From: a virus
Reading direction: 5' to 3' (one strand)
DNA: 34,666 nt
IMG/VR virus record: IMGVR_UViG_3300030104_003365
Coordinates: 1-34,666 of that record
Shown here: piece after piece, positions 765 to 34,638 of the stretch
Numbering within the stretch: the first letter of the stretch is position 1
Layout: each line of letters starts with the position of its first letter
The notes under the pieces: generated by a model
The model's input: only the letters and a program-made list of their open reading frames with translations
The model's database searches: none
Told to the model about the DNA's origin: nothing
Translations under genes and position numbers: made by a program

Positions 765-897
765 CTTTTATTACCTTCTTTCTTATATTTATTCCCGTCT
801 GCGCTTTTATATGTCCTACAATATCTTTACTAGACTTAGATGATAAAAAGCTCAAAATAGGCGTTTTCTCGTACTTTTTACGTTTAAGTATATACAA
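751..897 (-). CDS. Small basic protein, TTG start
   Basis: A 48-residue reading frame fills the gap between its two neighbours. It starts at a TTG (897) inside the end of the 525-residue gene, with CGGAGG about 9 bases upstream, and its TAG (751-753) lies inside the first codons of the next gene, so all three genes are overlapped. The product is rich in Lys and Arg (begins LYILKRKKYEK, ends VIKDGSD) and has no membrane segment. No family is recognised. One copy of the AAAGTACGA motif (869-877) lies in it and encodes its KYE. The SD/TTG pair and the exact gap filling favour a real gene; the short length is the main doubt. Confidence 0.45.
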   Translation of the reverse strand: MYILKRKKYEKTPILSFLSSKSSKDIVGHIKAQTGINIRKKVIKDGSD

Positions 898-2461
898 TTA
901 CCCTAACCTCCGAATCTATTTTAGAATTTATGCTTCTGGCGCTTATAGTTTGAATTATGTTTACATAGTTGCTAGCAGTATTCATTTTTCCAGAGTGTGC
1001 CGAGCTATAGTTTGCAGATATTACAAATTCAGCTCTGTAAGGTCCAGTAAAAGAAATCTCTCCAGAATCATAATTTATAGTGCCATTTCCTACGCCTAGC
1101 AAATTTCCTTTACCATCGTCAAACATGTATATTGTTCTATCTTTATGAGTTTGACCAGTTTCTGCGTCTATAATTGTATCTATTGGCAGTTCTGATACCA
1201 TGGTCGCCTCGTGACTTGCTATAGCTGGTATATTCCCGGCGCCCCATATAGTTGTGCCATCTGCGGGTGCCACCATAGTAACCGAATTTCCTTTGAGGCC
1301 TCTTCTATCTGTTATTGCTATATCGCCGTTTAAAATACTCGCTTGTAAGAAATCTGTAGCTATAGAACCTCTAAAAGCTGTATTCATTTTTTGTATCAAC
1401 CCATTAGCTCCGCCATACCTAGTATTACTAGAGTCTATAGTTACAGCGATGTCGGCAGTTGTACCAGTTATTGTCGTTACTCTAAATTCGTAAGTTGTTC
1501 CAGCTGTCAATCCAGTATCGTCATTTGTGTTAATTGATAGTCCAAATTTTCTATGTACTGGTGGAAAAAATTTAATAGCTACAGAACCCGGCACTAGTCC
1601 TTGCGGTGTTGCATCAGCTGAACGTCCGTATCCAAAAAAGTTTTTACTTGTAAAAGAACCATTAGCATCAGTTCTTATATGAGTAGAGCTGTCATCTTCT
1701 GTTGCTACATCGTACAAGTGATTATGAAAATAAAAATATACATCTGTAGAGCTACTTAAAGACTGCGCTGTAGTGCCAAAATATCCTCTCTCTACGGTGC
1801 AATTAGTTGCACTATCTACTGATACTATTCGTATAAATTCGTCTACTGCTGTGCCACCGCCAGAATCTAAAGCAAGTATATCTCCCGGCCTAAACTTTCC
1901 CGTGCTTTGGAATACTATATCAGTCTCAGTATCGGGCTCACTAGCATTTACATTTACTCCAGTATCTATATAAAATGGTCCAGCGCCCGTACCAGTTAAA
2001 CTAGCCGTAGCTGTGTCCGTGTCGGATGGTAATACATCTGATAAAGTGTTAGCATTAGCCCCAGATGTAGCATTGTCGTACTTTATTGTCCTTCCGGTTG
2101 GCGTATAATAAAAATCTCCGGGATTTATTATCATGGTTTGATAAGCAGTTGAGCCATCATTCTCACTTGCATTCGCCCAAGTCATCATACCAATTTGCAC
2201 CTCTATAGGAACCGGTCCAGTATTATAAAGACATAATGCTTTTGGCGCCTCTAGTACGTTATCGCCTTTTGCTTCTGTTTGAAATTCTGCTATTTTTAAA
2301 AACCCATCTGTATTATCTAAAGCTATTGTCTTGTCAGTTTTATTTGTGATAGGTTTATTGACAGAAAAAAAAGTTCTTTCCGAATCTTCTAAAATTAGCT
2401 GAACTCGAGCCCTATTTTTAGTTGCTGTTGACCTTCTTGTAGATGTGGTATAAGTTGCCAT
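884..2461 (-). CDS. Virion structural protein, fiber or decoration type
   Basis: A 525-residue protein starting at ATG 2461 with an AAAGGAA ribosome binding site. It is rich in Thr, Ser, Asn, Asp and Gly with few Cys or charged clusters, as is usual for beta-rich fiber, tail-sheath-like or decoration proteins. The N-terminal 30 residues are basic; the rest alternates short hydrophobic strands with polar turns. It is the third large gene after the lysis cluster in the leftward operon. No enzymatic motif or signal peptide is visible. Virion role is inferred from composition and operon context; a fiber, an appendage or a capsid decoration protein are all possible. Confidence 0.6.
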   Translation of the reverse strand: MATYTTSTRRSTATKNRARVQLILEDSERTFFSVNKPITNKTDKTIALDNTDGFLKIAEFQTEAKGDNVLEAPKALCLYNTGPVPIEVQIGMMTWANASENDGSTAYQTMIINPGDFYYTPTGRTIKYDNATSGANANTLSDVLPSDTDTATASLTGTGAGPFYIDTGVNVNASEPDTETDIVFQSTGKFRPGDILALDSGGGTAVDEFIRIVSVDSATNCTVERGYFGTTAQSLSSSTDVYFYFHNHLYDVATEDDSSTHIRTDANGSFTSKNFFGYGRSADATPQGLVPGSVAIKFFPPVHRKFGLSINTNDDTGLTAGTTYEFRVTTITGTTADIAVTIDSSNTRYGGANGLIQKMNTAFRGSIATDFLQASILNGDIAITDRRGLKGNSVTMVAPADGTTIWGAGNIPAIASHEATMVSELPIDTIIDAETGQTHKDRTIYMFDDGKGNLLGVGNGTINYDSGEISFTGPYRAEFVISANYSSAHSGKMNTASNYVNIIQTISARSINSKIDSEVRVIVYT

Positions 2462-2473
2462 TTTCCGTTCCTT

Positions 2474-3280
2474 TTATATTAAATGATATTGTACTTGTAA
2501 GTTTGTATAAAAATCTCCAGTAGTAGAATTAACTTTTAAAACTCCTATAATAACTTGCCCAGCTGTAACTTGAGAGCCAGTACCACCAGTAAGAGTTAAT
2601 TCGTCAGATACAATTTGTTGCGAATTTATGGTTAAATTAGAGCTATACGCTAATACTGAGCCATTAGATAAATCTCCTTTACTGCCAGCAGATACACTCA
2701 TGTCGTATTTCATTAAATGAAACTCACATGTATCGTCAGCCACATTATCTGTCATAGCTAGAGCTACACATTTGTCAATCTGCATGTCTCCCATAGCAAC
2801 AAAATAAGTTTGAATTAAATCATATCTAGCTGATGCTGTGACGGTACTTATATCGATAGCAGATGTTGGGTCTGTACTTGTTCCAAAATGTGTTTCGCTT
2901 ACGCTATAATTTCCATCTCTTCCCATAGGAAAATGCCCAGTAGCTGATGGTTCGCAATTACTTGTATAAAAATTCACTAGCTGTGATGTCGCGTGGTGAT
3001 TATTATGACTAATTGTAACTTCGTTAGTAGAGCTATTACATCTTAATACTCTATCTCCATTATTAGCCGTTACTTGAAATATATAACCATCTGTGGTGGT
3101 TGGAGATAATAATAAATTGTTTTTCCCCATAGCCATGCATGATGCATTCCCAGCACCATCGTATATACCATAACTTCCACCACCAAAACCAGACGCCGTT
3201 CCACTGCCAGCAGTTCCTATCTGGAGTAAATCCTTATACGTTTCTCTTGGTGTTTTATTAGTTAAATCTGTTTTTGCCAT
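2474..3280 (-). CDS. Hypothetical structural protein, Gly/Thr/Ser-rich
   Basis: A 268-residue protein with AAGGAG just before ATG 3280. Residues 22-45 are Gly-rich, and the body carries several Cys (near 48, 81, 108) in a Ser/Thr/Asn-rich beta-like sequence. It sits 12 bases from the next gene and 9 bases after the previous one in the leftward late operon, between two other probable fiber or decoration proteins. The C-terminal part alternates hydrophobic and polar residues (beta strands). No family recognised; a virion surface protein is the best guess. Confidence 0.55.
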   Translation of the reverse strand: MAKTDLTNKTPRETYKDLLQIGTAGSGTASGFGGGSYGIYDGAGNASCMAMGKNNLLLSPTTTDGYIFQVTANNGDRVLRCNSSTNEVTISHNNHHATSQLVNFYTSNCEPSATGHFPMGRDGNYSVSETHFGTSTDPTSAIDISTVTASARYDLIQTYFVAMGDMQIDKCVALAMTDNVADDTCEFHLMKYDMSVSAGSKGDLSNGSVLAYSSNLTINSQQIVSDELTLTGGTGSQVTAGQVIIGVLKVNSTTGDFYTNLQVQYHLI

Positions 3281-6193: not shown

Positions 6194-7207
6194 TTATTCA
6201 GCACCTAGGATGAATACTCTTCTTTGACCAGTAGTCGCAGAATTTCTAATATTACATCCATATACCATATCCGCTACCATTTTAGTTCCTAGGTAGTCGA
6301 TATCGTAATCAGCTTGCATTCTTACGCCTTGGCTGTATGCGATTTGCATAGCTGTTTTATGAACACAATATCCTATCGGAGTAAAGTTATCAGTTTCACC
6401 GCCAGCATTATCCATGTTGGTTGTAGCTGTAGTAACATTCGCAGACATTACAATCGGCATACCAAATACCGTAGCAATTTGTCCGGTTGTACCAAACCCA
6501 GCACCTAATGGAGCAGATGCTGTTCCATAAGATAGCTGTACAAGAGCAGATAATCCAGCATAGGCTGTTGGACTAACAATTAAAGTCCAATTACTAACGT
6601 CTTGGTCTTGAGATAACACATTATTTAAGATTAACTCAAAATCTGCATTACTTGCTGTTTTAAGGTCAGCACCAGTTACAATACCATTAATTTTACCAGA
6701 TGCGCTTTGGCATGATGCTAATAACTTTGACTCTAAGTACTCATCAATTTTATTAGCTAATGCATATCCCATTTCTTGAGAGTAGATATTCATAAGGTCA
6801 TAATTGGATTGAACTTGTAAAACGTCTTCAATTAGAGTAGCACTATATGTATGCTGGTCTATTGTTAACGTTTCTTCTGTCATAGCAGTAGCATCAGTAC
6901 CATAAGAAATTGCACTTTCTACGGTCTTGTCGCCAGTAGCTATGGTATCAAATGTAGGGATGTGAATTTTATCAGCACCCTCAGATACAAACGCCGAAAG
7001 GTCATTTGCGTAGTTTGCAAAAACTAACTTATCTTTAAATGCAACCTCTACAGCTGGTGCCCATACTTCTGGGACAAAAACATTGTGCGAGGTTGTGCCG
7101 GCTTCATTTAATCCACCAGTGATTACTTTAGCATTTGCGATTTGTAAGTCATTACCCATAGGCCCAGATTGTACCCAGCCTTGGATGTTATTTAATAAAT
7201 TTAACAT
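6194..7207 (-). CDS. Major capsid protein
   Basis: A 337-residue protein with a TTAGGAG ribosome binding site before ATG 7207. It follows the scaffold gene and is preceded by a structured leader, as usual for the most strongly expressed late gene. Sequence features: a hydrophilic N-terminal arm (1-45), PEVWAPAVEVAFKDKLVF (46-63), a central region with TLTIDQHTYSATLIEDVLQV (113-132), helices for the long spine (140-167), and a C-terminal segment rich in hydrophobic beta strands ending RRVFILGAE. These resemble HK97-fold capsid proteins of the P22-coat/SU10-like types. No clear N-terminal propeptide is seen; the separate scaffold protein fits that. Confidence 0.85.
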   Translation of the reverse strand: MLNLLNNIQGWVQSGPMGNDLQIANAKVITGGLNEAGTTSHNVFVPEVWAPAVEVAFKDKLVFANYANDLSAFVSEGADKIHIPTFDTIATGDKTVESAISYGTDATAMTEETLTIDQHTYSATLIEDVLQVQSNYDLMNIYSQEMGYALANKIDEYLESKLLASCQSASGKINGIVTGADLKTASNADFELILNNVLSQDQDVSNWTLIVSPTAYAGLSALVQLSYGTASAPLGAGFGTTGQIATVFGMPIVMSANVTTATTNMDNAGGETDNFTPIGYCVHKTAMQIAYSQGVRMQADYDIDYLGTKMVADMVYGCNIRNSATTGQRRVFILGAE

Positions 7208-7237: not shown

Positions 7238-7273
7238 TGTCAGCTTAGGAGCTGAGTCGAGCGTTAGCTACTC
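7238..7273 (-). promoter_or_regulatory. Tandem hairpins in the leader of the capsid gene
   Basis: Two adjacent stem-loops lie between the scaffold gene's stop and the capsid gene's RBS. On the leftward transcript the first is GAGT-AGC, loop TAAC, GCT-CG-ACTC (overlapping the scaffold stop); the second is CAGCT, loop CCTA, AGCTG. There is no U-run. They may stabilise the capsid transcript or mark an RNA-processing point. Confidence 0.45.
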
Positions 7274-7810
7274 AAAGGATTTGCCAATCGCGTTCTTGTG
7301 CCATTCACGTCTTTCAGCATCATTCATTTCATTATATTTTTTATTTGAAATGGGATTCTTTATCGTACTTTTTGGCCTAAGTGGATTGTCAGACCTTTGA
7401 GCTTTCAATTTATTCTGAATCTTTCTTAGTTGTGTAAGATTCAAACTCTCAAAGTCCGCCCTATCTTCTTCTGGAAAAGATTGCAAAATCGTCTCTTTCT
7501 CACTAGAAATAATTAAATTAGCTTCATCGTATTTAGCTTGCATGTTAGCAATCTGCGTTTCTTTTTCCGTTAAAAGCTCTTGGAATTTTCCTTCTTCTTT
7601 TAACTTTTTTTCTTTCGCATTTTTTGTTTTTGCTTCATATTCCGCTATCCTAGATTCAGCTTCTTGCGCTCTTTTGCGCAGTTTTTTTGCATTCTCTACT
7701 TCGTCTGCATAGGACTTTTTATAATCACGCGACTCGTTCTGATTAGGCGTGTCGACCGACTGGTCTGGGGAGTTATTTGTATCTACTGATACGTCATTTT
7801 CTGTAGCCAT
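7268..7810 (-). CDS. Scaffold protein
   Basis: A 180-residue protein directly upstream of the major capsid gene. The N-terminal 30 residues are acidic and polar; residues about 30-125 are a long charged coiled coil (heptads with many Lys, Glu, Ala); the C-terminal part is basic (NPLRPKSTIKNPISNKK and REWHKNAIGKSFE), as in scaffold proteins whose basic tail binds coat protein. No protease motif. Length and position are typical for a phage capsid scaffold. A copy of AAAGTACGA (7363-7371) lies within it, 156 bases upstream of the capsid start. ATG 7810 has AGGAG 12 bases upstream. Confidence 0.82.
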   Translation of the reverse strand: MATENDVSVDTNNSPDQSVDTPNQNESRDYKKSYADEVENAKKLRKRAQEAESRIAEYEAKTKNAKEKKLKEEGKFQELLTEKETQIANMQAKYDEANLIISSEKETILQSFPEEDRADFESLNLTQLRKIQNKLKAQRSDNPLRPKSTIKNPISNKKYNEMNDAERREWHKNAIGKSFE

Positions 7811-7892
7811 CTGCTTAAAATCTCCTAAAATTAGTTATGTTATATTAACTAAAATTTTATTAATATAAAACATTAAATATTGGATTTTTTTA
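7811..7892. promoter_or_regulatory. Divergent intergenic region with inverted repeat
   Basis: The 82-base gap separates the leftward scaffold/capsid operon from the rightward terminase/portal operon. It is about 85% AT and contains the inverted repeat TTAGTTA (7831-7837) and TAACTAA (7846-7852), spaced 8 bases, which could be an operator. TATATT-like boxes occur but no convincing -35 could be assigned. Divergent promoters are expected here from the gene layout only. Confidence 0.4.
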
Positions 7893-9230
7893 ATGAATTT
7901 GAAGGAATATAAAGATAAGTGGTTTAGCTTTATCGAATATACACCTCATTCTGGTCAATATAAAATGCACTATCCGCCTAAAGGGGAATATGACTATAAT
8001 GAAAATCCAGAAGGTACGAGGTTTATGGTCGCTTGCTGTGGTAGACGTTGGGGTAAATCTTTTTCTTCTGCTAGGGAGGCTGAAATAGTACTCTCTCAGC
8101 GTGATAAGCGTGTGTGGGTTGTAGCGCCCAATTATGGGACTAGCGAAAAGATATTTAGAATAATATACGAGGATATGGTTATTAAACAAAATCTAGCTAC
8201 AATTAGAAAATCTAGCAAAGAACAATATATAGAATTTGAGTGGGGTTCCAGTGTGTACGGCAAGTCCGCCGACCATCCAGACTCTCTAATTGGTGAAGGT
8301 TTAGACCTTGTAATATTAGACGAGGCATCCAAAATAAATCCCAAAATTTGGGAATCCTACATACGCCCCACTCTTTCAGATAGAAAAGGTAGAGCTATAT
8401 TTGTATCTACCCCATCTGGTTATAATTATTTTTATGATTTATATTTACGTGGCAAAGATAAAAAAAATTGGTATTCTTTTAATTCTCCTAGCTGGGAAAA
8501 TAATCACGCGTTCCCTAAAGCTGACCAAGACGATGATATTTTAGAGGCCCAATCTAGCGTTGCAAAGGAAATATTCGACCAAGAGTATGGAGCTAAATTT
8601 ACTAGTCTTAGTGGTAGAGTTTACGATTTTGATGAAAATAAGGACGTGGGTGATTTTGGATACAATCCACATTTACCTACTTACTGCTCTATTGACTGGG
8701 GTTATAGAATGCCAGCAGTATTATGGTTTCAGACCTATAAAATAAATGACCAACATCATATAAATATTATTGATGAATTTATCCACGAGACCAACATTAA
8801 GACCGAAAAACTAATAAATATAATTATGAGTAAACCTTATAGGGTGGCTAGATATTATGGCGACCCGGCTGGATATCAAGTTCAAAGCTCTATAGGTATG
8901 GGTGATGCTGAGAGTTTTTATAGAAAATCTGGCCATAGAATGTTTACTATTAGAGATAAAGTTTCTCGGAGCATATCGTCTGGAATATCACACGTGAGAG
9001 GCTTTATTAATAGCGCCGACAATACTAGGCGCATTCATGTACATAAAAAATGTACGGGAATTGTAGAAGACTTCTTAGGTTATAGGTACCCAGAATGGAA
9101 GGATGGGAAGACTTTGCATGACGACCCATTAAAAGATGGTAGATGCGACCATGGTATGGATGCATTGAGGTATTTTTTCGTTAACAGATTCCCAATTAAA
9201 CAATTTAAAATAAGGAAATTAACAGCATGA
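7893..9230 (+). CDS. terL: Terminase large subunit
   Basis: A 445-residue packaging motor ATPase/nuclease that pumps phage DNA into the prohead. Seen: Walker A GRRWGKS (50-56), Walker B VILDEA (140-145), the coupling motif VSTPSG (171-176), and RNase H-like nuclease acidic residues at SIDWG (Asp268), YGDPAG (Asp324), and HGMDALRYF near residue 425. Length is usual. The portal gene's ATG overlaps its stop (ATGA). The RBS is weak, so expression may be modest. It is on the strand opposite to the capsid genes and about 5.4 kb from the small subunit, an uncommon arrangement. Confidence 0.95.
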   Translation: MNLKEYKDKWFSFIEYTPHSGQYKMHYPPKGEYDYNENPEGTRFMVACCGRRWGKSFSSAREAEIVLSQRDKRVWVVAPNYGTSEKIFRIIYEDMVIKQNLATIRKSSKEQYIEFEWGSSVYGKSADHPDSLIGEGLDLVILDEASKINPKIWESYIRPTLSDRKGRAIFVSTPSGYNYFYDLYLRGKDKKNWYSFNSPSWENNHAFPKADQDDDILEAQSSVAKEIFDQEYGAKFTSLSGRVYDFDENKDVGDFGYNPHLPTYCSIDWGYRMPAVLWFQTYKINDQHHINIIDEFIHETNIKTEKLINIIMSKPYRVARYYGDPAGYQVQSSIGMGDAESFYRKSGHRMFTIRDKVSRSISSGISHVRGFINSADNTRRIHVHKKCTGIVEDFLGYRYPEWKDGKTLHDDPLKDGRCDHGMDALRYFFVNRFPIKQFKIRKLTA

Positions 9231-10594
9231 TAGAGACAGCTCAAGAGATTATTAAAAAGAGTGTTTTAGGTTTAAAGCATGAAAATTCTTTACAGCGTCG
9301 TAGAATGATAGAGAAATATATAGATTTTTATGGCGGTGAAAATACAGCTCAATATATAGCGCATAGATTTAATTTAGACGCCTTTAAAGAAATACCGCCA
9401 GCGTGCTTTAATTTTACTAGGAAATTTATAGATAGAATGGCTCGCATATATACTCTTGGAGCTACTCGTAGCGTTAACGATACTTACTCTAATATGACCA
9501 TCAATAAAAATGCTTCATTTAAGCATATAGAAAAGATGACTAGACTGGTTGGCACAATAGCTGTTAAAATTGATATGAACGAAGAAAGTACGGGATTATC
9601 AAATAAATTATCTTATAGTTATGAGCCAGTTTATTATTTTGACCCTATATTTGAAGACGATTTTATGAACCCGGTCGCTGTGGTCTATCCGGTAGTCGGT
9701 AGCTCTGCCGACATGTCTTATGATTCGCCTATTTTATATACCTATTGGGATTCAGAAATTCAAGCTATACTAGACTCTGAGGGTAAAATAATCGAAGAGC
9801 ACGCTCATAATTATGGCTTTTTACCCTTCGTTTTTACTCATAGAGAGCCTCAAGTAGATGACTTTTTTGTATGTGGTGCTTATGATATAGTATCTGCAAA
9901 TGAGCTGGTAAATATACTGCTTACTGAGGCTAATTTAGGTCTTAGATTTTCTATGTTTGGCCAGCATGCTGTTACTGGACTTTACTCTGATGATAATATT
10001 CAGCGTGCTGGTTCTGATGAACTATTAGTATTGCCAGAAGGCGCTAAGTACGAGATATTATCTCCAGAGGCTAATGTTAGGGATGCTATAGACTTAATTA
10101 AAAATATGTTAGATTTATGCGCCCAGAACAATCATCTATCTGTATCGTTTGCAGAGACATCGTCAGATAGACCGACCTCGGGCATCGCACTAAAAATTAA
10201 GGACCTCGAAAGATTTGAGGATTATCAAGATGATATAGAATTGTTTAGAAAGTACGAGAGTGACTTTTTTATAATTGAAAGACAGCTAGCATCTTTATAC
10301 AATATTAATCTGCCAGACAATTTTACTATTAATTTTAATGAGCCCGAATACCCTAAGTCTACTCAAGATGATATTATGATGAAGACTTGGGAGCTAGAAA
10401 ACGACTTAACTACAAAAGCTAAATTATTACAATCTACTAATAAAGATTTATCTCTGGATGAGGCGCAATCTATAATAGATGAAAACGAGGAAATAAATGG
10501 CACTAGAACCGAAGAAACCGAAGAAACTGAAGGACAAGAAACAGCTCCGCGGACAATCTTTGATAGACTACGTCAAGAAACTCCGACAGCTTAA
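9227..10594 (+). CDS. Portal protein
   Basis: A 455-residue dodecameric portal, the channel through which DNA enters and leaves the head. Assignment rests on position (ATG overlaps the terminase stop and a gpG-like and a gp7-like gene follow), length, and features typical of SPP1/HK97-type portals: an N-terminal helical segment (IEKYIDFYGGENTAQY), a clip/stem region with SANELVNILLTEANLGLR (225-242), SFAETSSDRPTSGIALKIKD (about 310-329), a motif characteristic of SPP1-type portals, and an acidic low-complexity C-terminus (EETEETEG). The last 98 bases overlap another gene in a different frame. Confidence 0.85.
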   Translation: MIETAQEIIKKSVLGLKHENSLQRRRMIEKYIDFYGGENTAQYIAHRFNLDAFKEIPPACFNFTRKFIDRMARIYTLGATRSVNDTYSNMTINKNASFKHIEKMTRLVGTIAVKIDMNEESTGLSNKLSYSYEPVYYFDPIFEDDFMNPVAVVYPVVGSSADMSYDSPILYTYWDSEIQAILDSEGKIIEEHAHNYGFLPFVFTHREPQVDDFFVCGAYDIVSANELVNILLTEANLGLRFSMFGQHAVTGLYSDDNIQRAGSDELLVLPEGAKYEILSPEANVRDAIDLIKNMLDLCAQNNHLSVSFAETSSDRPTSGIALKIKDLERFEDYQDDIELFRKYESDFFIIERQLASLYNINLPDNFTINFNEPEYPKSTQDDIMMKTWELENDLTTKAKLLQSTNKDLSLDEAQSIIDENEEINGTRTEETEETEGQETAPRTIFDRLRQETPTA

Positions 10595-12787: not shown

Positions 12788-12817
12788 TTGCATCTAATAT
12801 AGAAAGTACGATAAATT
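12788..12817 (+). promoter_or_regulatory. Promoter for the mom operon, with embedded AAAGTACGA
   Basis: TTGCAT (12788-12793), an 18-base spacer, then TAAATT (12812-12817) is a reasonable sigma-70-type promoter about 36 bases before the first gene's start. The spacer contains AGAAAGTACGA (12801-12811). Two promoters at 21.7-21.9 kb share the TTGCAT box and the 18-base spacing. The surrounding gap 12682-12853 is about 80% AT and holds no other gene. Confidence 0.45.
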
Positions 12818-12976: not shown

Positions 12977-12977
12977 A

Positions 12978-14411: not shown

Positions 14412-14670
14412 ATTCTCTTAATCTTATCTTACTATTATCGTAACCTTTCTTAATCCAGTACTTTTTGCGCACGTAAGCCTCAAAATAATTATCATGCATA
14501 TCTCTAGGTCTTAAATACCATGAGCCTTTATAATATTTAAAGTCGTGCTCGTACCACTGGCATATTTCGTACTTTTTTCTAGGAAACGGCCTAGGATTAG
14601 CGCAATTCCAAGCCTCATCTGCGAACGTGGTTATTAAAGTAATCTGGAAATAAGCGAATAGAGTACTCAA
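14410..14670 (-). CDS. Hypothetical protein downstream of small terminase
   Basis: An 86-residue reading frame starting at TTG 14670 that overlaps the small terminase stop (TTGA). The N-terminus has a hydrophobic stretch (FAYFQITLITTFAD) followed by an aromatic, basic body rich in Tyr, Trp and Lys (KKYEICQWYEHDFKYYKG, RKKYWIKKGYDN). It ends at the terminator shared with the mom operon. No family recognised. A copy of AAAGTACGA (14567-14575) encodes its KKYE. The TTG start without a strong SD makes the exact start uncertain. Confidence 0.5.
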   Translation of the reverse strand: MSTLFAYFQITLITTFADEAWNCANPRPFPRKKYEICQWYEHDFKYYKGSWYLRPRDMHDNYFEAYVRKKYWIKKGYDNSKIRLRE

Positions 14671-16133: not shown

Positions 16134-16401
16134 ATTGTATATACCTTCTTAGTAGATTAAACGCCTCACGCCATACATCTATATAGTACTTTTGTCGTAC
16201 TTTCTCATTACCTATAGCGTGACGTTCTTGATGATGCTTACGGCAAAGTGGTATACAAGTTAAGTCTTTCTGCGTACGTTTACGCCTATCTCCTCCCATA
16301 CCTATTGTCTCTAGGTGGTCAGCGTCCACACGTCTCTCTCCACACAGCAGACATGGTTGCTTTCTTATATACTCTAGATACTTGCCGTAAGCTATATTCA
16401 T
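16123..16401 (-). CDS. HNH family nuclease
   Basis: A 92-residue HNH-type protein. Seen: CLLC (17-20) as first zinc pair, VDADHL (25-30) with catalytic His29, C49 and C53, then HH (56-57) and HERH-like H61. The compact layout resembles DUF968/Nin-region nucleases and the small HNH proteins near phage recombination genes. It could help replication-linked recombination. A strong hairpin (16410-16431) separates its ribosome binding site from the ATG. Confidence 0.8.
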   Translation of the reverse strand: MNIAYGKYLEYIRKQPCLLCGERRVDADHLETIGMGGDRRKRTQKDLTCIPLCRKHHQERHAIGNEKVRQKYYIDVWREAFNLLRRYIQYEI

Positions 16402-18619: not shown

Positions 18620-18626
18620 ATGTTAT

Positions 18627-20248: not shown

Positions 20249-20265
20249 TTAATCTCCTAGTAATG

Positions 20266-20358: not shown

Positions 20359-20363
20359 TAAAA

Positions 20364-21711: not shown

Positions 21712-21970
21712 ATATTATCTCCTTTATGTTTACTAGTAGTATAATATGGCTAATTAATATAATGCAAGTATTTTTTTTAAATTAACAAAAAAAGATAAAA
21801 ATACGTACTTTTAGCCTAATTTGTTAGGGTGTGTACGTGGTGTATATTGTGTATTCTCCTCGGTGAGCAAAAAAAAATATAAAAGAAAGTACGATAATGC
21901 TTGCATCGTATTATATTTATTATCTATATTATAATCGTTGGCAAGACAAATAAAATAAAGGGTTAAAAAA
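21712..21970. promoter_or_regulatory. Divergent promoter region between GGCT and amidoligase genes
   Basis: Leftward: TTGCAT (21762-21767 on the minus strand), 18-base spacer, TATACT (21738-21743). Rightward: TTGCAT (21901-21906), 18-base spacer, TATATT (21925-21930). AAAGTACGA (21886-21894) lies just before the rightward -35, and its near-copy AAAGTACGT (21803-21811, minus strand) lies upstream of the leftward promoter. The 259-base gap contains no credible gene. Two equal promoters back to back suit coordinated expression of the cassette. Confidence 0.55.
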
Positions 21971-23207: not shown

Positions 23208-23465
23208 TTACCATGCTTTGCAAGACCAGTATCTGGCCTTAGTTTTTGGTCCGGGATTTGAGCAGTTATGTCTAGCTCTAAATGATTTTCTCCTAGCCGG
23301 ACTTGATTTTTTTATTCGCATATTTGGGTCACCGAATGTCACGCGTTTAACCCTAGAACCAGCTTTTACGTAAACTTGTGATTTTTTTCTACCATATCCC
23401 GGTTGACCTTTTCTTATTCTGGTCGGTTTATTCAGCTTAACCGACTTGCCTTTATATGTAGCCAT
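23208..23465 (-). CDS. Small basic protein with RARHNC/ARYWSCKxW motif
   Basis: An 85-residue protein. The N-terminal part is basic and Gly-rich; the C-terminus has RRKSFRARHNC and KTKARYWSCKAW, a short Cys/His/Trp motif I have seen recur at the ends of small basic proteins in phages and large algal viruses; function is unknown. The two Cys and the His may hold a metal. AAAGGAG precedes ATG 23465, with AAAGTACGA (23479-23487) immediately upstream. Confidence 0.65.
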   Translation of the reverse strand: MATYKGKSVKLNKPTRIRKGQPGYGRKKSQVYVKAGSRVKRVTFGDPNMRIKKSSPARRKSFRARHNCSNPGPKTKARYWSCKAW

Positions 23466-23517
23466 TTAAGCTCCTTTCTCGTACTTTCTAGCTAAAAACA
23501 TTTCCCCCAAGGTAATA

Positions 23518-24807
23518 CTACCAGACTTCTTTAATTGTAAATGATACATTATAAAACCCTAAAGTATCTTGAGTAATTTCAATAGAACTATCTAGTTTAC
23601 ATATAGCAATATTATGAGGGTCTTTAGCGTTTGGCATAAACATAAATCGTACATTAGGTAGTCGTGCAATTAATTTAGAGTACATGTCTGTTGGATAAGA
23701 GTTGTCGGTATCTACGTCTGCAATATGAGATAAAACTTGGAAATGTTCTGGGAACATTGTAGCCTCTGGAATGCCTCCGATATTTATATTCCAAACTCTA
23801 CGGCCTCTAAATTGTTTATATTCTTGGTCTAAAGTCCATGGCTTTATTATTTGAATCTTACCCGTTCCATTAACGCCATCATCTGTATAAGTTGACCAAC
23901 CCGGCGGAGTATTATAATTGGAGTCCCTTGCAACATTATTTCCTAGCGTTCTTTTTTGTCTATATGTACCATCCATATTAAATGATATTTGAGAGTCTAA
24001 ATTAGGGTCTATAGGCAATAAATATGTTTCTCCCATACTTAGTGCCCCCATAACAAAATGCGATTGCTGAGTTTGCATATATTCTGGTGGATGCCCCTTT
24101 CTAAATGATAACAAAATGTCTTTACCTATATAGGTTGACATTGGATTTATCCATGTCCCACTCCATCCATTTTTTAACGAATATTGATACATGCCAGATT
24201 GCTCATGGGCTAAGTTGATTGGAGCAAAACTATTATCGAATGGACCAGATTCATCAGAGATAGTCGTCACCCCATTCCAAGGTTCAGAGTCACCACCAAC
24301 ATCACCTCCATATAATTTAAATCCTATTTCGCAAGACTTTGCATTGTGGCCTAACATCATCATATAATCCATCTCTTTTTGCCTAAATGAATAGCCTATA
24401 ATTTGAGATGGAATGCTCATAATTAATTCTTCTTCAAATACATCTGTCGGTATAGTGGTTTGTATTGTCGGGTCTAAATTGAATAATTGTGACACTTTCG
24501 ATGTTGGGACTAAATCAGATAGTTCGTTATTTAAAGAGCCATCAAAAAACTTTACATGCCCCCAATTTAATAATTGATGACTAAGCGCTCTATCAAAATA
24601 TGGCACACTTTGACCATCTATAATTGGCGAATCTACTAAACGTGCTGGATAACCAACATCAAAATAGGTGCCGTATGTTAAGTTACTATATTGAAAATAA
24701 TCAAAAAAGAACCTACAATTTTCTACTCCTAAATTATTTCCGCCAGCATAATCATAATCTAAGCTAGGCGTTCCATCTACATTGAGTCCATAATTTCTAT
24801 ATGGCAT
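23518..24807 (-). CDS. Tail-tip/minor tail structural protein
   Basis: A 429-residue protein. The start is placed at ATG 24807, overlapping the previous stop (TAATG) with AGGAGG 10 bases before; an upstream ATG in the same frame lies before that SD. The sequence is rich in aromatic residues (NCRFFFDYFQYSNLTYGTYF) and Asn/Gly, with long beta-like stretches and no enzyme motif. It is the last large gene of the tail operon. A tail-tip or receptor-contact role is inferred. Confidence 0.55.
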   Translation of the reverse strand: MPYRNYGLNVDGTPSLDYDYAGGNNLGVENCRFFFDYFQYSNLTYGTYFDVGYPARLVDSPIIDGQSVPYFDRALSHQLLNWGHVKFFDGSLNNELSDLVPTSKVSQLFNLDPTIQTTIPTDVFEEELIMSIPSQIIGYSFRQKEMDYMMMLGHNAKSCEIGFKLYGGDVGGDSEPWNGVTTISDESGPFDNSFAPINLAHEQSGMYQYSLKNGWSGTWINPMSTYIGKDILLSFRKGHPPEYMQTQQSHFVMGALSMGETYLLPIDPNLDSQISFNMDGTYRQKRTLGNNVARDSNYNTPPGWSTYTDDGVNGTGKIQIIKPWTLDQEYKQFRGRRVWNINIGGIPEATMFPEHFQVLSHIADVDTDNSYPTDMYSKLIARLPNVRFMFMPNAKDPHNIAICKLDSSIEITQDTLGFYNVSFTIKEVW

Positions 24808-26099
24808 TATAAAAAAACCTCCTCGCATGCAAACGTGTAAGTAGATATATCGTCATTTATTTTTACAGCGTCGAACGAGGTGGAGTTTAATCTAGAAACG
24901 TAAAAATCATCTTTATCCTCGTGTGGTTGAAAAACAAATAAACCTTTACCTCCCATAGTAGCTCCAAAAACATTTGATAGTATATCTTCTGCTGTGTCAA
25001 CCTCATCGTTTAAATTGCCTTGCCATCTATTATTTAAAGACCAAGGGAATAAACTTTTTGAGTCATGTCTTCCTACCTCATATGTAGTATCCCATCCGCC
25101 AGATGTCGTACTTTTTTGACTTTTATTCCTAGTTTGATTATATGTTAACGCCCAATTTTTTTTCCCAAAGTGGACTGGTGTTCTTTTTTTAATCGTACTA
25201 AAATTATCGTCATATCCGTATGTCTGTCCTTGGACCAGTATTCTATTTTGGTTTCTTCCTTTAGTCATAAATGACTGGCTAGTGCCATTTCTAGAGGATA
25301 AAGACTCGTAATCAGTAGATGATATAAAAGTACTATTTGTATTTGGTTGAGCTAATTGATATTCTCTATATGGAAATACACCAGACACGTTTGACGTTAG
25401 TAGGTCACCAAACGCTGAATAAGACTCGCTTTCAATTATTATTTCTAAATAATTACCGCCTCTTCCGCTCCATGTTATTGGATTAGAAAAAGCTATTTTA
25501 GAAAAGCCGTTTCTTACTGCTATATAGCCATTTTGTTTTTCTGCATTAACAGATATTGACTCATCTACAGCCTCAAACATTTGGTTCTCGTTTGTGACTA
25601 CGCCTTGTAAAGTGTCAAAATCAGATTTATAACTCTTGAAATATACCTTATGGGTCACATCCATTTGAAAAATGCCGAAACCTAAATCTTGTAATTTTTC
25701 TTGTTGAATATTATTTATAATCACCCCATCTATTTTTATATTTATGTTAGAGCCTTCATTCTCTTGAAATAAATCTTCTTCTCTTGCAGTTATTATTGGA
25801 GTATGTATTGACAGCCCCCATTTAAATGTTAATTTGCCATCTGTTGCTGGCGTCCATGATGTATTAACGCTAGATAGTCCGCGACTTTGCTCGTAAAAAG
25901 GATAATACCCTCCGTTTTCGGTTTCTTTTTTAACATATAATGGCGGGTCATAATAGTGTCCAGAATCGGACATATAATTATCATTTATAGTTCCATCCGT
26001 TTTTAATCTTTTGTAGTAAATATTTTTTCTTTCAGCGTCTAATATGCCATTAGATAGATATGATATTGGGTCTAGATATATTGTAGGATTTTTAATCAT
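24807..26099 (-). CDS. Tail-tip/minor tail structural protein
   Basis: A 430-residue protein starting at ATG 26099 (ATGA overlap, AAGGA before). Polar, aromatic, beta-rich, with Asn/Ser/Thr/Tyr turns and a C-terminal GATMGGKGLFVFQPHEDKDDF segment. Its C-terminus reads EVFL before the next gene's start, and the next protein ends KEVW, hinting at related folds. No catalytic motif; no family recognised. Confidence 0.55.
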   Translation of the reverse strand: MIKNPTIYLDPISYLSNGILDAERKNIYYKRLKTDGTINDNYMSDSGHYYDPPLYVKKETENGGYYPFYEQSRGLSSVNTSWTPATDGKLTFKWGLSIHTPIITAREEDLFQENEGSNINIKIDGVIINNIQQEKLQDLGFGIFQMDVTHKVYFKSYKSDFDTLQGVVTNENQMFEAVDESISVNAEKQNGYIAVRNGFSKIAFSNPITWSGRGGNYLEIIIESESYSAFGDLLTSNVSGVFPYREYQLAQPNTNSTFISSTDYESLSSRNGTSQSFMTKGRNQNRILVQGQTYGYDDNFSTIKKRTPVHFGKKNWALTYNQTRNKSQKSTTSGGWDTTYEVGRHDSKSLFPWSLNNRWQGNLNDEVDTAEDILSNVFGATMGGKGLFVFQPHEDKDDFYVSRLNSTSFDAVKINDDISTYTFACEEVFL

Positions 26100-26608
26100 T
26101 TTGATTTCCTTGGGCCTTTCAAAGAAACTCTCTTAATTCCATAATCTGACCACTTAGAGCCCACATCTTTCCATAAAGCTCTTTCATTAGATAGCGACTC
26201 TTCTTCATTAGATAAACCGCCCCAATTCCCCCAGATATAGTTGTTTCTTTTATCAGATGGAACACATGTCAACATCGTATAATTCCAATCCACTACTGCT
26301 AATTTTGTTGGCTTAAAAAGCCCATCGTATTTAAATAATATTGGCGTATACTTTATTTCTTTTCCTAAAGAAACCATTATAATTGTTTTGTTGCCTACAA
26401 AATACTCCATGCCTTGTATCTTATCTTTTAGGCGTAGCGTTCCTTCGTATTCTATTTGAACCCCCGCTGGCATAACTCCGTTTGAATCAATTATAAAGCG
26501 ACCATCTCCATACTCTGCGCTTACTTGGCTTAAATCGCCCATTTTACGCAATCTTTCTAGTTGCCCGGGTGTTGGTTTAATGTTTGGATATTTTTGTCTT
26601 TTTATCAT
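26096..26608 (-). CDS. Small tail operon protein
   Basis: A 170-residue protein with GAGGG before ATG 26608 (TAATG overlap). A basic N-terminus (MIKRQKYPNIKPTPGQLERL) precedes a beta-type domain with many Trp (ILFKYDGLFKPTKLAVVDWN; GNWGGL), and a Lys-rich end (GPRKSK). No family recognised. Its gene lies between the dockerin-bearing protein and the two tip proteins. Confidence 0.55.
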   Translation of the reverse strand: MIKRQKYPNIKPTPGQLERLRKMGDLSQVSAEYGDGRFIIDSNGVMPAGVQIEYEGTLRLKDKIQGMEYFVGNKTIIMVSLGKEIKYTPILFKYDGLFKPTKLAVVDWNYTMLTCVPSDKRNNYIWGNWGGLSNEEESLSNERALWKDVGSKWSDYGIKRVSLKGPRKSK

Positions 26609-29388
26609 TACTGACCCTCTATTACTGCCGATACTAACATAACTACATCCAGTATATTTACAACCCCATCGGAATTAAAATCTGCTAATTCTTTTTCTGG
26701 GTCTGACCAAGTTGCGTTTGTATCTACTATTATACTAACCATGCTAACTATATCTAAGATATTTAAAACACCATCCATGGTTATATCGCCTTTTTCATAC
26801 GTCTGGAAATCTGGATTATATTGAAAATTCCCATCGTTATAGTTTGAGCCCGGGTCTGGATTGGTTCCAGCCCAGCCAAAAGATTCGTCATATGGTAGCT
26901 CATATTCTTGTCCTTGCCATTGTAAATTATTTATATGAGCATGATGTATTTGTCTCGCTACTATTTTTATAGTGGTTCCTATAGCGACTTGATGGATATA
27001 GAATAAAGGTAAAATATATTGACCATTTCTAATTACTAAATCTGTATAGTCTTCTCCGAATATAGTTTCGTTATTAAATGGCCCGTTGGGAAATTGTACG
27101 ATATCGCCTATTTCTAAATAACAAAATCTTAAAGGTAGCTCGAGTTTTATTATATTGTGAGGCTGACATCTATCAAGTAATTTAAATACGGTCCACTCTA
27201 GAGCAGAGGACTCGTCTTTAATTAAATCTAATTTGGCATTTAAATTGTATGGTGTGTAATCATATTCCAAGTCACCATTTATGTAAATTTGCTCCATATT
27301 ATAATAACCGGGGTCGTATGCGGATAAAAGAACTTGGCCAGCCGTTACTGCTGGAAGAGATTTATTAAAGTCTTTTGATATAATATTGTAATCGTAATAA
27401 GTTTTTACTCTTGCTATAATATTATCATTAGGCTCCCTATCAATATTAAAATTTATAATATCTGAGTTGTCAATCATAAATATATTATCTTCATACCCAT
27501 TATATGTTTTTTGTAATATTTTTATTGATAACTTGTTTTGTAGTAAGGTTGGTATGCAATAACTTTGATTGGCAATTTTAGTTATAAGCTGTAGCCCTTT
27601 AGTTTGGTCTTTAATACTAAAAGACATTTTATACATACTATTATCATAATTGACGTGAGCATTTCTGGCTATCTGCATATCAACCTCGTTTAATCCAAAA
27701 TTAACACCCATCTCCCAATCTAATAAATGATATATAATATCGGTCGGTCTTTCTATACTAATATCTTCTTCCGTAGGGTCATAATCTCTATCTGGTAACT
27801 CTTGCCACGAATCATCATCATATACCAATAAATAATCATCGTATTCTGCGTCTGATATACCAATATTAACGTTAATAGTGTGAATTGCGACATGCCCAGT
27901 CATAGATGTCAACATTACGTAAAACTTGTCTGTAGTTCCAGTAGCTCCGGTATGCGTATACTGAACTTGAAACGTATTGTTATAATTAATAATCGGTAAT
28001 GTAATCTCTGTAGATGATGTCGATGTACTTACCTCAGAGAATAATTGGAAATTATCTGTCACATCTATCCCCGTAAAATTTGATGCGAATATAGGTGTCC
28101 CGATACTATCGTAGTAGACATTTAACATATTCCAGCTAACTACAAAGGAATCAGCAGAAACTCCGCTGGCTCCAAAATATTGAAACGCATTTATCCCGGC
28201 TATATAACCCATACCAGATTCTTCGTCTACTACTTCTATCTGCGCAATAGCTATTTCTTGCATTCCTTCCCACGTAAATAAATTATCAGTAGGATTATAA
28301 TTATTGAATGGCTCTAAATCTCCAAAATCTAAACCATATTGAGGGTCTACTAAATTAATTTCGCCATGTTGCGCTACTTGCATATTTTCTTTTATTTCTT
28401 CTATTGTCAAATCTGTTACGGGCGAGCCTTGATTTGATTCAAAGTATTTACCATACCACACACCATTAATAGTAGCATTATACATTCGGTTTTCAAACTC
28501 TGGAGTTTCGCTTGCATATTCTCCCGTTAAAAATTGCTCTTCTAATCCAAATAAAAAATTATTCTCAAACACATTTACTGGCTTTACTATAAATAACGCG
28601 CCAGCTCCACCTAAATCGGCGAACTCGTTAAAGCTATTCACGTCGACATAATTTTCTCCCCTAGGTTTATATAAATCTAAAAAAGTATCTGGATACGTAT
28701 TTAATTCAAAATTTTGACTAATATAATTATTAAACGCTGTAGCTGAGGTCTTTTGAGTTCCTTGTAATCCCCAAACTGCACCCGGGTCAAAAGTTAAATC
28801 TATAGTGGCAGTAGCTCCTTCTTCTATAAATATTTCATTTGGACCATGTATACTCATAGTTTCATTATAAGTAAAAGCAGAGCCCGTATAGAATGGATAC
28901 CACTCAGTATAAACATCGTCTGCGTCACCAGACATGTAGAGTTTAAATTGAAGGTATACCACACCTAAATCTATAAATTCACTTTCGCTCATATCTAGCT
29001 CTTCATGCAAATCATATAATTCAATATGCCAAAGAAATTCTCTTGGCGTATAATCTGGAAGACCTCTTATAAGATTTTGAAATACTTTAGAATAGCCAAA
29101 TGACGAATGGTTTCTATTAAATACGGCACTTGAATTAGAGCCATTAGAATATGGTGATATATTGACACCTATACCAACCGAGCTCCCATAAAATAAATCA
29201 GTTATTAAATTTTCAGAGGTTCCGTCATATTGCCAATTTAAAATAACGCTCATAGGTTTAGCCCCAAAAGCTGGATTATGGTCTATATTTGTTCCATGTC
29301 GAGATATTCTTGGAATTGGACCCAAAGTGTTATGCACAAAAGCGTCTGAGTTTTCAATAGTCGGATAATGTAAATCTAAATCAAACAT
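26608..29388 (-). CDS. Large tail protein with C-terminal dockerin-like module
   Basis: A 926-residue protein. The first ~860 residues are beta-rich, with a region near 560-810 (DNIFMIDNSDIINFNIDREP, LKLLDRCQPHNIIKLELP-type) resembling baseplate-hub or tail-tip proteins that follow the tape measure. The last ~60 residues carry two EF-hand-like repeats, GDITMDGVLNILDIVSMV and ADFNSDGVVNILDVVMLV, i.e. D-x-[TN]-x-D-G-x-x-N-x-x-D with hydrophobic helices: the type I dockerin pattern, which binds Ca and a cohesin. Tail hub role: position and inference. Dockerin: pattern seen directly. Confidence 0.7.
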   Translation of the reverse strand: MFDLDLHYPTIENSDAFVHNTLGPIPRISRHGTNIDHNPAFGAKPMSVILNWQYDGTSENLITDLFYGSSVGIGVNISPYSNGSNSSAVFNRNHSSFGYSKVFQNLIRGLPDYTPREFLWHIELYDLHEELDMSESEFIDLGVVYLQFKLYMSGDADDVYTEWYPFYTGSAFTYNETMSIHGPNEIFIEEGATATIDLTFDPGAVWGLQGTQKTSATAFNNYISQNFELNTYPDTFLDLYKPRGENYVDVNSFNEFADLGGAGALFIVKPVNVFENNFLFGLEEQFLTGEYASETPEFENRMYNATINGVWYGKYFESNQGSPVTDLTIEEIKENMQVAQHGEINLVDPQYGLDFGDLEPFNNYNPTDNLFTWEGMQEIAIAQIEVVDEESGMGYIAGINAFQYFGASGVSADSFVVSWNMLNVYYDSIGTPIFASNFTGIDVTDNFQLFSEVSTSTSSTEITLPIINYNNTFQVQYTHTGATGTTDKFYVMLTSMTGHVAIHTINVNIGISDAEYDDYLLVYDDDSWQELPDRDYDPTEEDISIERPTDIIYHLLDWEMGVNFGLNEVDMQIARNAHVNYDNSMYKMSFSIKDQTKGLQLITKIANQSYCIPTLLQNKLSIKILQKTYNGYEDNIFMIDNSDIINFNIDREPNDNIIARVKTYYDYNIISKDFNKSLPAVTAGQVLLSAYDPGYYNMEQIYINGDLEYDYTPYNLNAKLDLIKDESSALEWTVFKLLDRCQPHNIIKLELPLRFCYLEIGDIVQFPNGPFNNETIFGEDYTDLVIRNGQYILPLFYIHQVAIGTTIKIVARQIHHAHINNLQWQGQEYELPYDESFGWAGTNPDPGSNYNDGNFQYNPDFQTYEKGDITMDGVLNILDIVSMVSIIVDTNATWSDPEKELADFNSDGVVNILDVVMLVSAVIEGQ

Positions 29389-31336
29389 TTTTCTTTTTAC
29401 CTTTATGAGGAACGCTCGCCAAATATTCTATATTTTCTCTGCCTTTAGTGTCTGCAAGTAATTGTATTTGTTTTTTCTTATCTATACTTGCGTCTATTTT
29501 TACTTTTATATCGCCGTATCTTTTTCTTGCAAGTCTTTTAAACAACAGTTCTGTAATTATATTTCTCGTACTTTTTTGGCTTAATCTTCTTTTAAATATT
29601 TTTTTACCACCAGATAAATGCTGTGTTATTTGTGTGTATAATTGTCCAGATTCGCCAATATACGTCTGCATCGTTTCATTTCCAGAGGTATATTTTAAAT
29701 CTATATTATCCAAACGCCCTCCAGTGTCTAAGTAGTATTGTTGCCCTATTGCATCATCAATAAAAAAACCATAGGTCATATATATTGACGCTATTTGCAA
29801 CCACATAGCGCGATTAACTTGATTTAAGTTGGGTGTTCCCGCTACATCAATCCATATTCCACCAGCTGGAGCATCTAATAGTTTTTCAGCATTTGTAAAA
29901 CCCGAGTAATTTGTGGTCCACCCAGTTCCTTGATGTTCAGCACCCGCATAAAATTGTAATGTATCATTAAAATATTGAGGTAGATGTATATCGTCGTCTG
30001 CGTCAGTATTTTCATTATTTCTAAGTCTGATTCTTACTTGCTTTGATTGCCCGCCTTGTTCTGCGTTATTGAAAGTAAAGTTGTCTGGCTCGCCCGGATG
30101 AGACCATCCAGCTGACATTGTTCCTCTTACTTTAGCAGTCATTCCTTGCGTTACACCCTCTTCTACTTTTATTAATGATGTCTTTGGTTGCTCTAAAGAT
30201 ACGCTAAGTCCAATTCTATAATCATTATAAACACCACCATAATATACTCCATAAGCTACGTCATCTACCGCAGTTCCAGTATGCCCTTCATAGGACTCCA
30301 TATACATATAACCACCAGATGGAGTGTATAAAGAGTCTAAACCATCTAGATAAATTGGCCTATATTTTATAGCTTGACCATTCTCATTTAATCCGCCTTC
30401 TCCCCAAGCACCAGAGTTTTCTCCTTGTGGGCAAAATGTATTTGCGCTTACCGGAAACGCATCATATCTTACGAATAATGTATTGCTGTGCCATGGTGAT
30501 AGCGCGCTTCCTTGTAAAGATACCCCATAATTTGTATATACATACTGCAAAGCATTTACAGCACAAAAATTGTTTTGTATATTAGCGTTAGAGTCTACGA
30601 AAGGGGCTATTCTATGAGACAAATTATCTTTTCCACTAGCAACATGAAACTCAGCTACTTCGCTATACCCAGTATCTGGAATACCTCCATTTATATGATA
30701 AGGAATGTTCTGATATTGTTCGTCTGTATCGACTTGACATTTCATGTCACTGCCGTCCGCGTTAGTTATTAATGCATAAGCCAAAGTTGAGCCATACGCC
30801 ATGGGTACTGGTTTTCCGTTGTATTTTTGGTATGTCTGGTCGTCTTGATTTATTAATCTTTGCGGTACATCTATCTTACTTACTACATTTACTCGATTTT
30901 CGACCTCTATTGTAACATATCCCTTACTTTTTCGTACCGACCTAATTCGTCCTTCGTATATTGCTATAGCATCTTTAATATCAGCATTTAATGGCCATAA
31001 TTTATATTCTGCTTTTTGGCCTTGTATTGGATGCTCTCTTAACATTTCTCCAAACTTATACGACTCTATGCTCGAATCTCGTACTTTTACCTTTAATGAG
31101 GTGATTGTAAATTTTTTGCTTTCTACGATATCTACAGATTCTCGTACTCTTGGCATGTCATCTATTAATCCGTAAACGTTGACGATATCTGTCTCAATAT
31201 TTTCGTCTGGAATAATTGTATTGTCTGTACTTAAATGATATATATATCCAGATGACGATTCTATTCTTAAATATGGTGAAATTGCGATGTCTTTATATTG
31301 CAATAAACTTAACGTATGCTCGCTAACTTTTCTCAA
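29381..31336 (-). CDS. Baseplate/distal tail structural protein
   Basis: A 651-residue protein directly after the tape measure. It starts at TTG 31336, overlapping the tape-measure stop (TTGA), with GGAG ten bases before. The N-terminal 220 residues (LRIESSSGYIYHL, VKVRDSSIES, AIYEGRIRSVRK, VTIEVENRVNVVSKI) form a compact beta domain like distal-tail/hub N-termini; the middle is Gly/Asn-rich and the C-terminus is Lys-rich. Position and layout support a tail-tip role. No family recognised with confidence. Confidence 0.6.
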   Translation of the reverse strand: MRKVSEHTLSLLQYKDIAISPYLRIESSSGYIYHLSTDNTIIPDENIETDIVNVYGLIDDMPRVRESVDIVESKKFTITSLKVKVRDSSIESYKFGEMLREHPIQGQKAEYKLWPLNADIKDAIAIYEGRIRSVRKSKGYVTIEVENRVNVVSKIDVPQRLINQDDQTYQKYNGKPVPMAYGSTLAYALITNADGSDMKCQVDTDEQYQNIPYHINGGIPDTGYSEVAEFHVASGKDNLSHRIAPFVDSNANIQNNFCAVNALQYVYTNYGVSLQGSALSPWHSNTLFVRYDAFPVSANTFCPQGENSGAWGEGGLNENGQAIKYRPIYLDGLDSLYTPSGGYMYMESYEGHTGTAVDDVAYGVYYGGVYNDYRIGLSVSLEQPKTSLIKVEEGVTQGMTAKVRGTMSAGWSHPGEPDNFTFNNAEQGGQSKQVRIRLRNNENTDADDDIHLPQYFNDTLQFYAGAEHQGTGWTTNYSGFTNAEKLLDAPAGGIWIDVAGTPNLNQVNRAMWLQIASIYMTYGFFIDDAIGQQYYLDTGGRLDNIDLKYTSGNETMQTYIGESGQLYTQITQHLSGGKKIFKRRLSQKSTRNIITELLFKRLARKRYGDIKVKIDASIDKKKQIQLLADTKGRENIEYLASVPHKGKKKNV

Positions 31337-33858: not shown

Positions 33859-34399
33859 TTATCCCCTTTTTAGATTTTTGCTCTTGAACTCGTACATTCT
33901 CCGCATGAGCCTCTAAACTTTTAAATAGAAAATATTTTTCTATCCATAACTTAGGCAAGTCACCATAACTGCCCGAAAAAGGTTGTATTCCGGTCCTTTC
34001 GCAGTATATAAATCTAGTTATATCTTGCTGTATTTTGCTATCTATAAATTTATGCGGACAGCAAAAGTGGACCAGTAAATTTTTAATACCATTTATGAGC
34101 CCGGGATATTGGATACTAGGATTACCTCTTTCAAGGTCTTCTTTTATCTTATATATATACGCCCAGACGTCATCTTCATTATTAAAGACTAAATTAGGGT
34201 AATTCTCATTTTCTTTAATGATGCCTCTAGCAGTATATGGAAAAGATGGGAATCTACATCCCTCGCAATTTCCTTCTATTAAATAATTTAAACCTATTGC
34301 GAGGGTTTGCTTTCCCCCAATACTTGAGCCTCTTGGATTTTCATAGCTAACTCTTCTTTTTCGGTGTCTGTTAATTGTTTTATAACATTGTCCGGACAT
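33851..34399 (-). CDS. Tail chaperone extension, probably made by -1 frameshift
   Basis: This frame overlaps the preceding 104-codon gene by 106 bases and is in the -1 frame to it. The first ATG inside (34399) has no ribosome binding site. The conserved-looking part begins after the overlap: CEGCRFPSFPYT, IKNLLVHFCCPHKF, IPDKLWIEKYF-like aromatic and Cys-containing stretches. This two-gene overlap just before the tape measure is the classic gpG/gpGT layout of tail assembly chaperones, so I call it the T-extension, translated as a fusion. As independent protein it would be 182 residues. Confidence 0.65.
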   Translation of the reverse strand: MSGQCYKTINRHRKRRVSYENPRGSSIGGKQTLAIGLNYLIEGNCEGCRFPSFPYTARGIIKENENYPNLVFNNEDDVWAYIYKIKEDLERGNPSIQYPGLINGIKNLLVHFCCPHKFIDSKIQQDITRFIYCERTGIQPFSGSYGDLPKLWIEKYFLFKSLEAHAENVRVQEQKSKKGING

Positions 34400-34608
34400 G
34401 TTTTGCTAGCATTAACGTCCCAGTCTTTAAATTCTCCACCGGCTAATCCAGCTCTAATCCACGCCGTCCTAGCTTGTGCAAGATTTTTAATAGTCTTGGC
34501 ATCGTCTCCAACAAAAACAATCTGAACCATGTCTTTACAAGCATCTATTTGGTCTATAGTCATTTCTTTGATTACGACCTTTCGTCCAGTTGATAATTTT
34601 GTTTCCAT
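34294..34608 (-). CDS. Tail assembly chaperone (G-like)
   Basis: A 104-residue, mostly helical protein with AAGGAG before ATG 34608. Sequence: acidic/basic mix with KEMTIDQIDACKDMVQIVF, KTIKNLAQARTAWIRAGLAGG, KQLTDTEKEELAMKIQEAQV. Size and placement between the tail-tube end and the tape measure match gpG-like chaperones, which coat the tape measure before tube assembly. Its last 35 codons overlap the -1-frame extension. A copy of AAAGTACGA (34628-34636) lies just upstream. Confidence 0.7.
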   Translation of the reverse strand: METKLSTGRKVVIKEMTIDQIDACKDMVQIVFVGDDAKTIKNLAQARTAWIRAGLAGGEFKDWDVNASKTCPDNVIKQLTDTEKEELAMKIQEAQVLGESKPSQ

Positions 34609-34638
34609 TAAGTATTACTCCTTATTCTCGTACTTTTT

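Follow-up and report, generated by a model that had tools for sequence, protein, structure and literature searches.

We found that the 9-mer AAAGTACGA is repeated throughout the genome of an AT-rich marine phage and is selected there at the nucleotide level, in any reading frame and beyond what codon constraint imposes. The phage is represented by IMG/VR record IMGVR_UViG_3300030104_003365 (36,909 bp, labelled G000), from which a stretch of 34,666 nt, referred to here as the window, was analyzed. An initial annotation had reported 13 exact copies in the window and placed every one correctly; the whole record has 14, or approximately one per 2.6 kb. Judging from sequence, our best explanation is that AAAGTACGA could be a lineage-specific, dispersed recognition site in double-stranded DNA for a sequence-specific DNA-binding protein, an assignment of class only that we hold tentatively and at somewhat less than an even chance. 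We favour it because selection acts on the DNA itself, the sites occur in either orientation within genes and at this density, and the corresponding word of a sister clade is a palindrome.

The count of AAAGTACGA exceeded both shuffled nulls, in agreement with the earlier claim that it is not due to chance. Dinucleotide shuffles of the window contained 0.32 ± 0.57 copies and never more than 3, compared to the 13 observed, and the order-3 Markov expectation was 0.53–0.56 copies. For the codon-preserving null, 300 synonymous shuffles kept each protein and the codon usage of each gene, giving 1.2 expected coding-strand copies in G000 genes (maximum 5) against 9 observed. Chance and codon usage were therefore both ruled out as the source of the count. 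AAAGTACGA is also the top 9-mer of G000, with a log-likelihood of 31.6 compared to a null maximum of 14.7, and when the same test was applied to 22 family sequences it was the top word in G000 and its relative G001, above the shuffled maximum in both. Intragenic copies fall in all three reading frames, which rules out a protein motif, as had been argued previously. The extended consensus AAAAGTACGAGA proposed in the initial annotation is present as a flank preference only, with A at −2 (20 of 23 sites), R at −1 (20 of 23), N at +9 and A at +10 (21 of 23), so that the site is approximately AR-AAAGTACGA-N-A.

Four copies are intergenic. Those at 12803..12811 (+) and 21886..21894 (+) lie in divergent intergenic regions, 42 nt before the rightward gene 12854 and 76 nt before an amidoligase gene, respectively, while 23479..23487 (−) directly precedes the ribosome-binding site of gene 23208-23465 and 34628..34636 (−) sits in the gap that separates the tail gene from gene 34294-34608. 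Within genes, copies were located at 2076..2084 (−) in gene 884-2461, 7363..7371 (−) in gene 7268-7810 and some 155 nt ahead of the capsid-like gene 6194-7207, 10249..10257 (+) in gene 9227-10594 at the portal position, 16195..16203 (−) in the HNH gene 16123-16401 with AAAGTACTA 11 bp downstream, and 25106..25114 (−) in gene 24807-26099. Gene 29381-31336 has two, at 29566..29574 (−), which is 177 nt before gene 26608-29388, and at 31079..31087 (−). Two more occur in open reading frames (ORFs), at 869..877 (−), immediately beyond the stop of gene 884-2461 and in the short ORF 754-897, and at 14567..14575 (−) in ORF 14410-14670. The 14th copy lies beyond the window, at position 36107 of the record (+), and is in antisense orientation to gene 35868-36335.

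That last copy bears on the earlier statement that the word is always on the coding strand, which is true of the 13 window copies (all sense to their own gene or the next) and of 13 of the 14 in the record. Within genes, however, the strand bias is what codon usage predicts: the codon-preserving null gave a coding to antisense ratio of 1.2:0.09, or approximately 93% on the coding strand, and 9:1 was observed. A degenerate matrix of the site matched 25 times on the coding strand of genes compared to 6.2 expected and 5 times on the antisense strand compared to 1.1 expected; as the matrix was trained on these same sites, only the strand-to-strand comparison is meaningful, and it shows a roughly fourfold enrichment on either strand. 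Similar enrichment on both strands is as expected for a DNA site that can lie in either orientation. Since codon usage already yields the bias, intragenic orientation carries no information on transcription, and these copies do not bear out the initial annotation's argument that orientation follows transcription and hence points to a promoter, Chi or a signal in RNA. For the same reason a hand-counted association between gene direction and motif strand in G000 and G001 (4/0 versus 1/15, hypergeometric p ~0.001) was left unused as evidence. More generally, a pattern of words always on the coding strand should be read with caution, as it can arise from codon usage alone. Independent information on orientation comes only from the intergenic copies (12803, 21886, 23479 and 34628, with 2376 and 9835 in G001), all of which are oriented toward the downstream gene; they amount to only approximately five independent cases, one pair being homologous, in leaders that, however, look purine-rich.

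A signal acting in the sense transcript, such as antitermination, processing or a translational operator, would account for 13 of 14 copies being sense and for some lying directly before ribosome-binding sites. We consider it improbable, as the sense bias in genes is codon-predicted, antisense copies are enriched as strongly, and folding of the leaders with copies at 12803 and 21886 is unremarkable. An Rfam search found no known RNA family at the copies.

The earlier observation of enrichment just before genes was upheld. Intergenic DNA makes up a few percent of G000 and holds 4 of its 14 copies (p = 0.009; p = 0.021 in G001), and for 8 of 14 a gene start follows within 200 nt (p = 0.011; non-significant in G001). 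This excess is compatible with regulation, though release from coding constraint could give it too. It could reflect a promoter core or activator box resembling middle promoters, with many internal starts by the host RNA polymerase, and such a box would suit both the intergenic copies directed at downstream genes and the divergent region 21712-21970, where the copy at 21886 and the near-copy AAAGTACGT at 21803 (−) face outward in opposite directions. Against this, no conserved partner column or hexamer peak corresponding to a −10 or −35 element was found at any spacing, and sigma-70-like and Bacteroidota-like partner elements were both rejected. The divergent region 7811-7892 before the terminase gene has no copy, and one G001 copy precedes a start codon by just 3 nt. 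As the initial annotation had noted for phage RNA polymerase, Pfam and PHROGs scans gave no RNA polymerase or sigma factor family match in G000, and the single-subunit phage RNA polymerase family had no match in G000 or the sister genome G005. AAAGTACGA resembles T7-type and T4 middle promoters in having some 14 copies, many of them upstream of genes, and differs in that no phage polymerase, known activator or core promoter partner was found; it shows neither the fixed-spacing −10/−35 elements of a sigma-70 promoter nor the polymerase match of a T7-type one. We regard a promoter function as unlikely, though worth keeping in mind.

AAAGTACGA is non-palindromic and its sites are solitary, with no conserved partner found within 60 bp; paired or clustered half-sites were rejected, as the TACGA/TCGTA excess within 30 bp was marginal (p = 0.018) and test-dependent. 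Spacing in G000 is too even for chance, with a minimum gap of 1207 bp (p = 0.00045; Greenwood p = 0.017). The word is shared with two close relatives, both genome fragments: G001 (L183; terminase 84% identical) has 6 copies in 18 kb and G002 (L184; terminase 81% identical) has 3 in 8.6 kb. Conservation of position among relatives, a point raised in the initial annotation, is partial. The copy at 34628 has a counterpart in the matching gap of G001 (2376), and the portal gene site matching 10249 is exact in G002 and TAAGTACGA in G001; other copies were gained or lost, a pattern like that of protein-binding sites under turnover. More distant family members lack AAAGTACGA. An IMG/VR scan for the motif plus a ribosome-binding site returned at least 120 stretches, none of which, among the matches listed, had more than 2 copies in the fetched stretch. 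Searches with the G000 ribbon-helix-helix (RHH), tail and exonuclease proteins gave no further clade members, and a literature search for AAAGTACGA gave only unrelated papers among the matches listed.

The sister clade (G005, G006, G007, G417, G419 and G422) shows no AAAGTACGA enrichment and has a system of this type built on a different word, the palindrome GTTTAAAC. It ranks first among the 8-mers of each of the six genomes, with 13–15 copies in the five near-complete ones and 8 in the 19-kb G422, where approximately 1 is expected. Its copies are dispersed, mostly intragenic, use more than one frame, prefer a preceding C and a following A or G, and are evenly spaced in G005 and G006 (p ~0.008). 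A palindrome suits a dimeric protein but does not suit Chi or an RNA signal. Most other tested family members have no such word, the borderline or stronger exceptions being G008, G414, G415 and G420. In G008, GGTATAGG was rejected as a dispersed word because it mostly repeats within one gene; separately, GATC-centred words are strongly over-represented in G008 (L193, L194), CCAGATCA for example occurring 12 times compared to 0.75 expected, with no clear orientation bias. GGGACAA in G414 was also set aside, being borderline and possibly a codon pair.

Several short words are missing from the lineage. GATC is absent from G000, G001 and G002, where 111, 59 and 28 copies are expected, as is CCTG/CAGG on both strands (119, 74 and 27 expected). 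G000 further has no GCAGC (45 expected), no GCCGC (21 expected), one ACAGT (34 expected) and zero EcoRI, HindIII and MfeI sites. The pattern looks like extreme restriction avoidance, in which the asymmetric CCTG is unusual, and this fits the presence of a Mom-family DNA modification protein at 13694-14383 (+) (Pfam Mom, E-value 4.5e-40). Sister lineages (e.g., L017, L041, L044, L234, L271 and L282) lack other 4-mers, namely GGCC, CCGG, CTAG, CATG, GTAC and GCGC, and asymmetric ACGC is also wholly missing among them. This lineage-specific avoidance fingerprint may aid host assignment.

Such pressure, with zero GATC, CCTG/CAGG and GCAGC, would be in keeping with a Chi-like site of a host AddAB/RecBCD-type enzyme, kept for withstanding degradation after restriction and for recombination. 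Like Chi, AAAGTACGA is short, evenly dispersed and frame-independent, with a strand bias that codons explain. On the other hand, the core of the palindromic sister-clade word cannot be directional, and L315 has the avoidance profile of G419 without its dense GTTTAAAC sites. There was no excess of AAAGTACGA in 395 Bacteroidota genomes, although the phage host is not known. We consider a Chi-like role rather unlikely.

If AAAGTACGA is instead bound by a protein, the binder may be phage-encoded, and two genes of G000 are candidates. The first is a 52-aa RHH-like gene at 20364-20522 (−). In the sister clade, a 52–62-aa RHH-like protein occurs in the six GTTTAAAC genomes and otherwise in G414 only, and its strand RxQIIGLD, predicted to read DNA, is invariant in five aligned members. 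It belongs to a module common to the six genomes that also includes an HTH_36 replication-type and a 118-aa protein; these two and a SprT-like protein found in all six are absent from the 13 other family genomes (a set that excludes the AAAGTACGA genomes), and a Rad52-family annealing protein occurs in the six plus one other. A profile built from the sister-clade RHH proteins plus that of G414 had gene 20364-20522 as its top non-seed match, bar one seed duplicate, among 3589 ORFs (E-value 0.051). The predicted structure is strand-helix-helix with a predicted local distance difference test (pLDDT) score of 73, and its weak Foldseek matches are rich in Arc, CopG, MatP, AmrZ and VapB. That this protein binds AAAGTACGA is a doubtful but specific proposal. 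The alternative candidate is a 104-aa winged-helix protein at 17174-17488 (−) with an HTH_39 match (E-value 3e-5), for which no homologue was found in the other genomes examined, G001 and G002 being fragments.

Several results weigh against a protein-binding site with an RHH binder. The profile match above is marginal, making for a weak protein link, and no Foldseek match had an E-value below 1 or was significant. L315 encodes an RHH protein nearly identical to that of G419 and shares its avoidance pattern, yet only 2 GTTTAAAC copies occur in its 20 kb, and substitutions have broken several of the sites that G419 has; G414 has an RHH protein and only the borderline GGGACAA. The presence of the RHH protein alone does not guarantee the word, and its association with GTTTAAAC in the sister clade is phylogenetically nested. 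In addition, even spacing is non-significant in G001.

Under a protein-binding reading, occupancy of the AAAGTACGA sites might control or organize the phage genome, the sites acting as dispersed operators or stoperators that block or modulate transcription, or as MatP-type architectural sites. Stoperators of Cluster A mycobacteriophages (L5, Bxb1, TipsytheTRex) number 26 in TipsytheTRex and up to 30 elsewhere, lie mostly in one orientation relative to transcription, and have a lineage-specific consensus that differs between relatives (PMC6550527, PMC9283540). AAAGTACGA is similar in being a short asymmetric, lineage-specific word spread across the genome in many copies that a codon-aware null does not explain. 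In contrast, there are 14 copies of a 9-mer core, Pfam and PHROGs scans found no repressor with helix-turn-helix and stoperator domains, integrase or other lysogeny gene in G000, and the codon null predicts the intragenic part of its 13 of 14 sense copies, leaving about five independent intergenic copies to inform on orientation. The distribution may therefore be called stoperator-like; we do not class AAAGTACGA as a stoperator because neither a cognate repressor nor lysogeny genes turned up and the orientation bias may not extend beyond codon effects. The MatP/matS system likewise has dispersed sites and a possible counterpart in the RHH-like protein, given its weak fold matches to MatP, CopG and Arc, whereas AAAGTACGA is non-palindromic and spread over the whole genome, and binding in G000 is only predicted.

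The genome in the G000 record is probably complete and circularly permuted, because one gene that is whole in G001 is split over both record ends and, apart from the final letter, the 17 bases at the end match the 16 at the beginning. It encodes structural proteins (terminase, portal, capsid-like and tail), replication and recombination proteins (replication initiator, exonuclease, NinB/Orf-like and RusA-like), an HNH nuclease and the Mom protein, and the scanned proteins had no Pfam or PHROGs family match to an integrase, repressor or other lysogeny gene. No INPHARED phage record matched the DNA of window positions 1-25000, the best INPHARED match of the terminase is 33%, and a genome-contig scan for terminase relatives gave only distant matches of at most 37% identity.

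A few other features were observed. The large tail-region protein 26608-29388 (−) ends in a Dockerin type I-like repeat (Pfam Dockerin_1, E-value 3.6e-5); because many Marinimicrobia proteins end in this way, the repeat hints weakly at the host. At 20516-22981, genes for a class II glutamine amidotransferase, a gamma-glutamylcyclotransferase-like protein and an amidoligase adjoin, a trio that suggests peptide or surface modification. The noncoding region 15333-15776 (444 bp, partly GC-rich) has near-copies AATGTACGA at 15493 (+) and TAAGTACGA at 15568 (−) and is a possible origin or packaging region. Strong stem structures were seen in intergenic 18541-18612 (−) (z −4.1 for 18535-18625) and in intergenic 20249-20363 (−), between the RHH-like and exonuclease genes (z −1.7 for 20240-20375); neither segment had a match in Rfam.

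If the sites are Chi-like, AAAGTACGA would reveal a recombination signal of the phage's host. If a phage protein binds them, uncultured marine phages in which no lysogeny genes were detected would have a system of the stoperator-like or architectural type, and since two or more independent words with candidate binders are available, specificity would be directly testable with small proteins. It is conceivable, though we think it unlikely, that this marine phage family uses small phage-encoded binders and approximately 14 evenly spaced, lineage-specific sites (AAAGTACGA, GTTTAAAC) as a previously undescribed system for organizing the genome or controlling transcription genome-wide.

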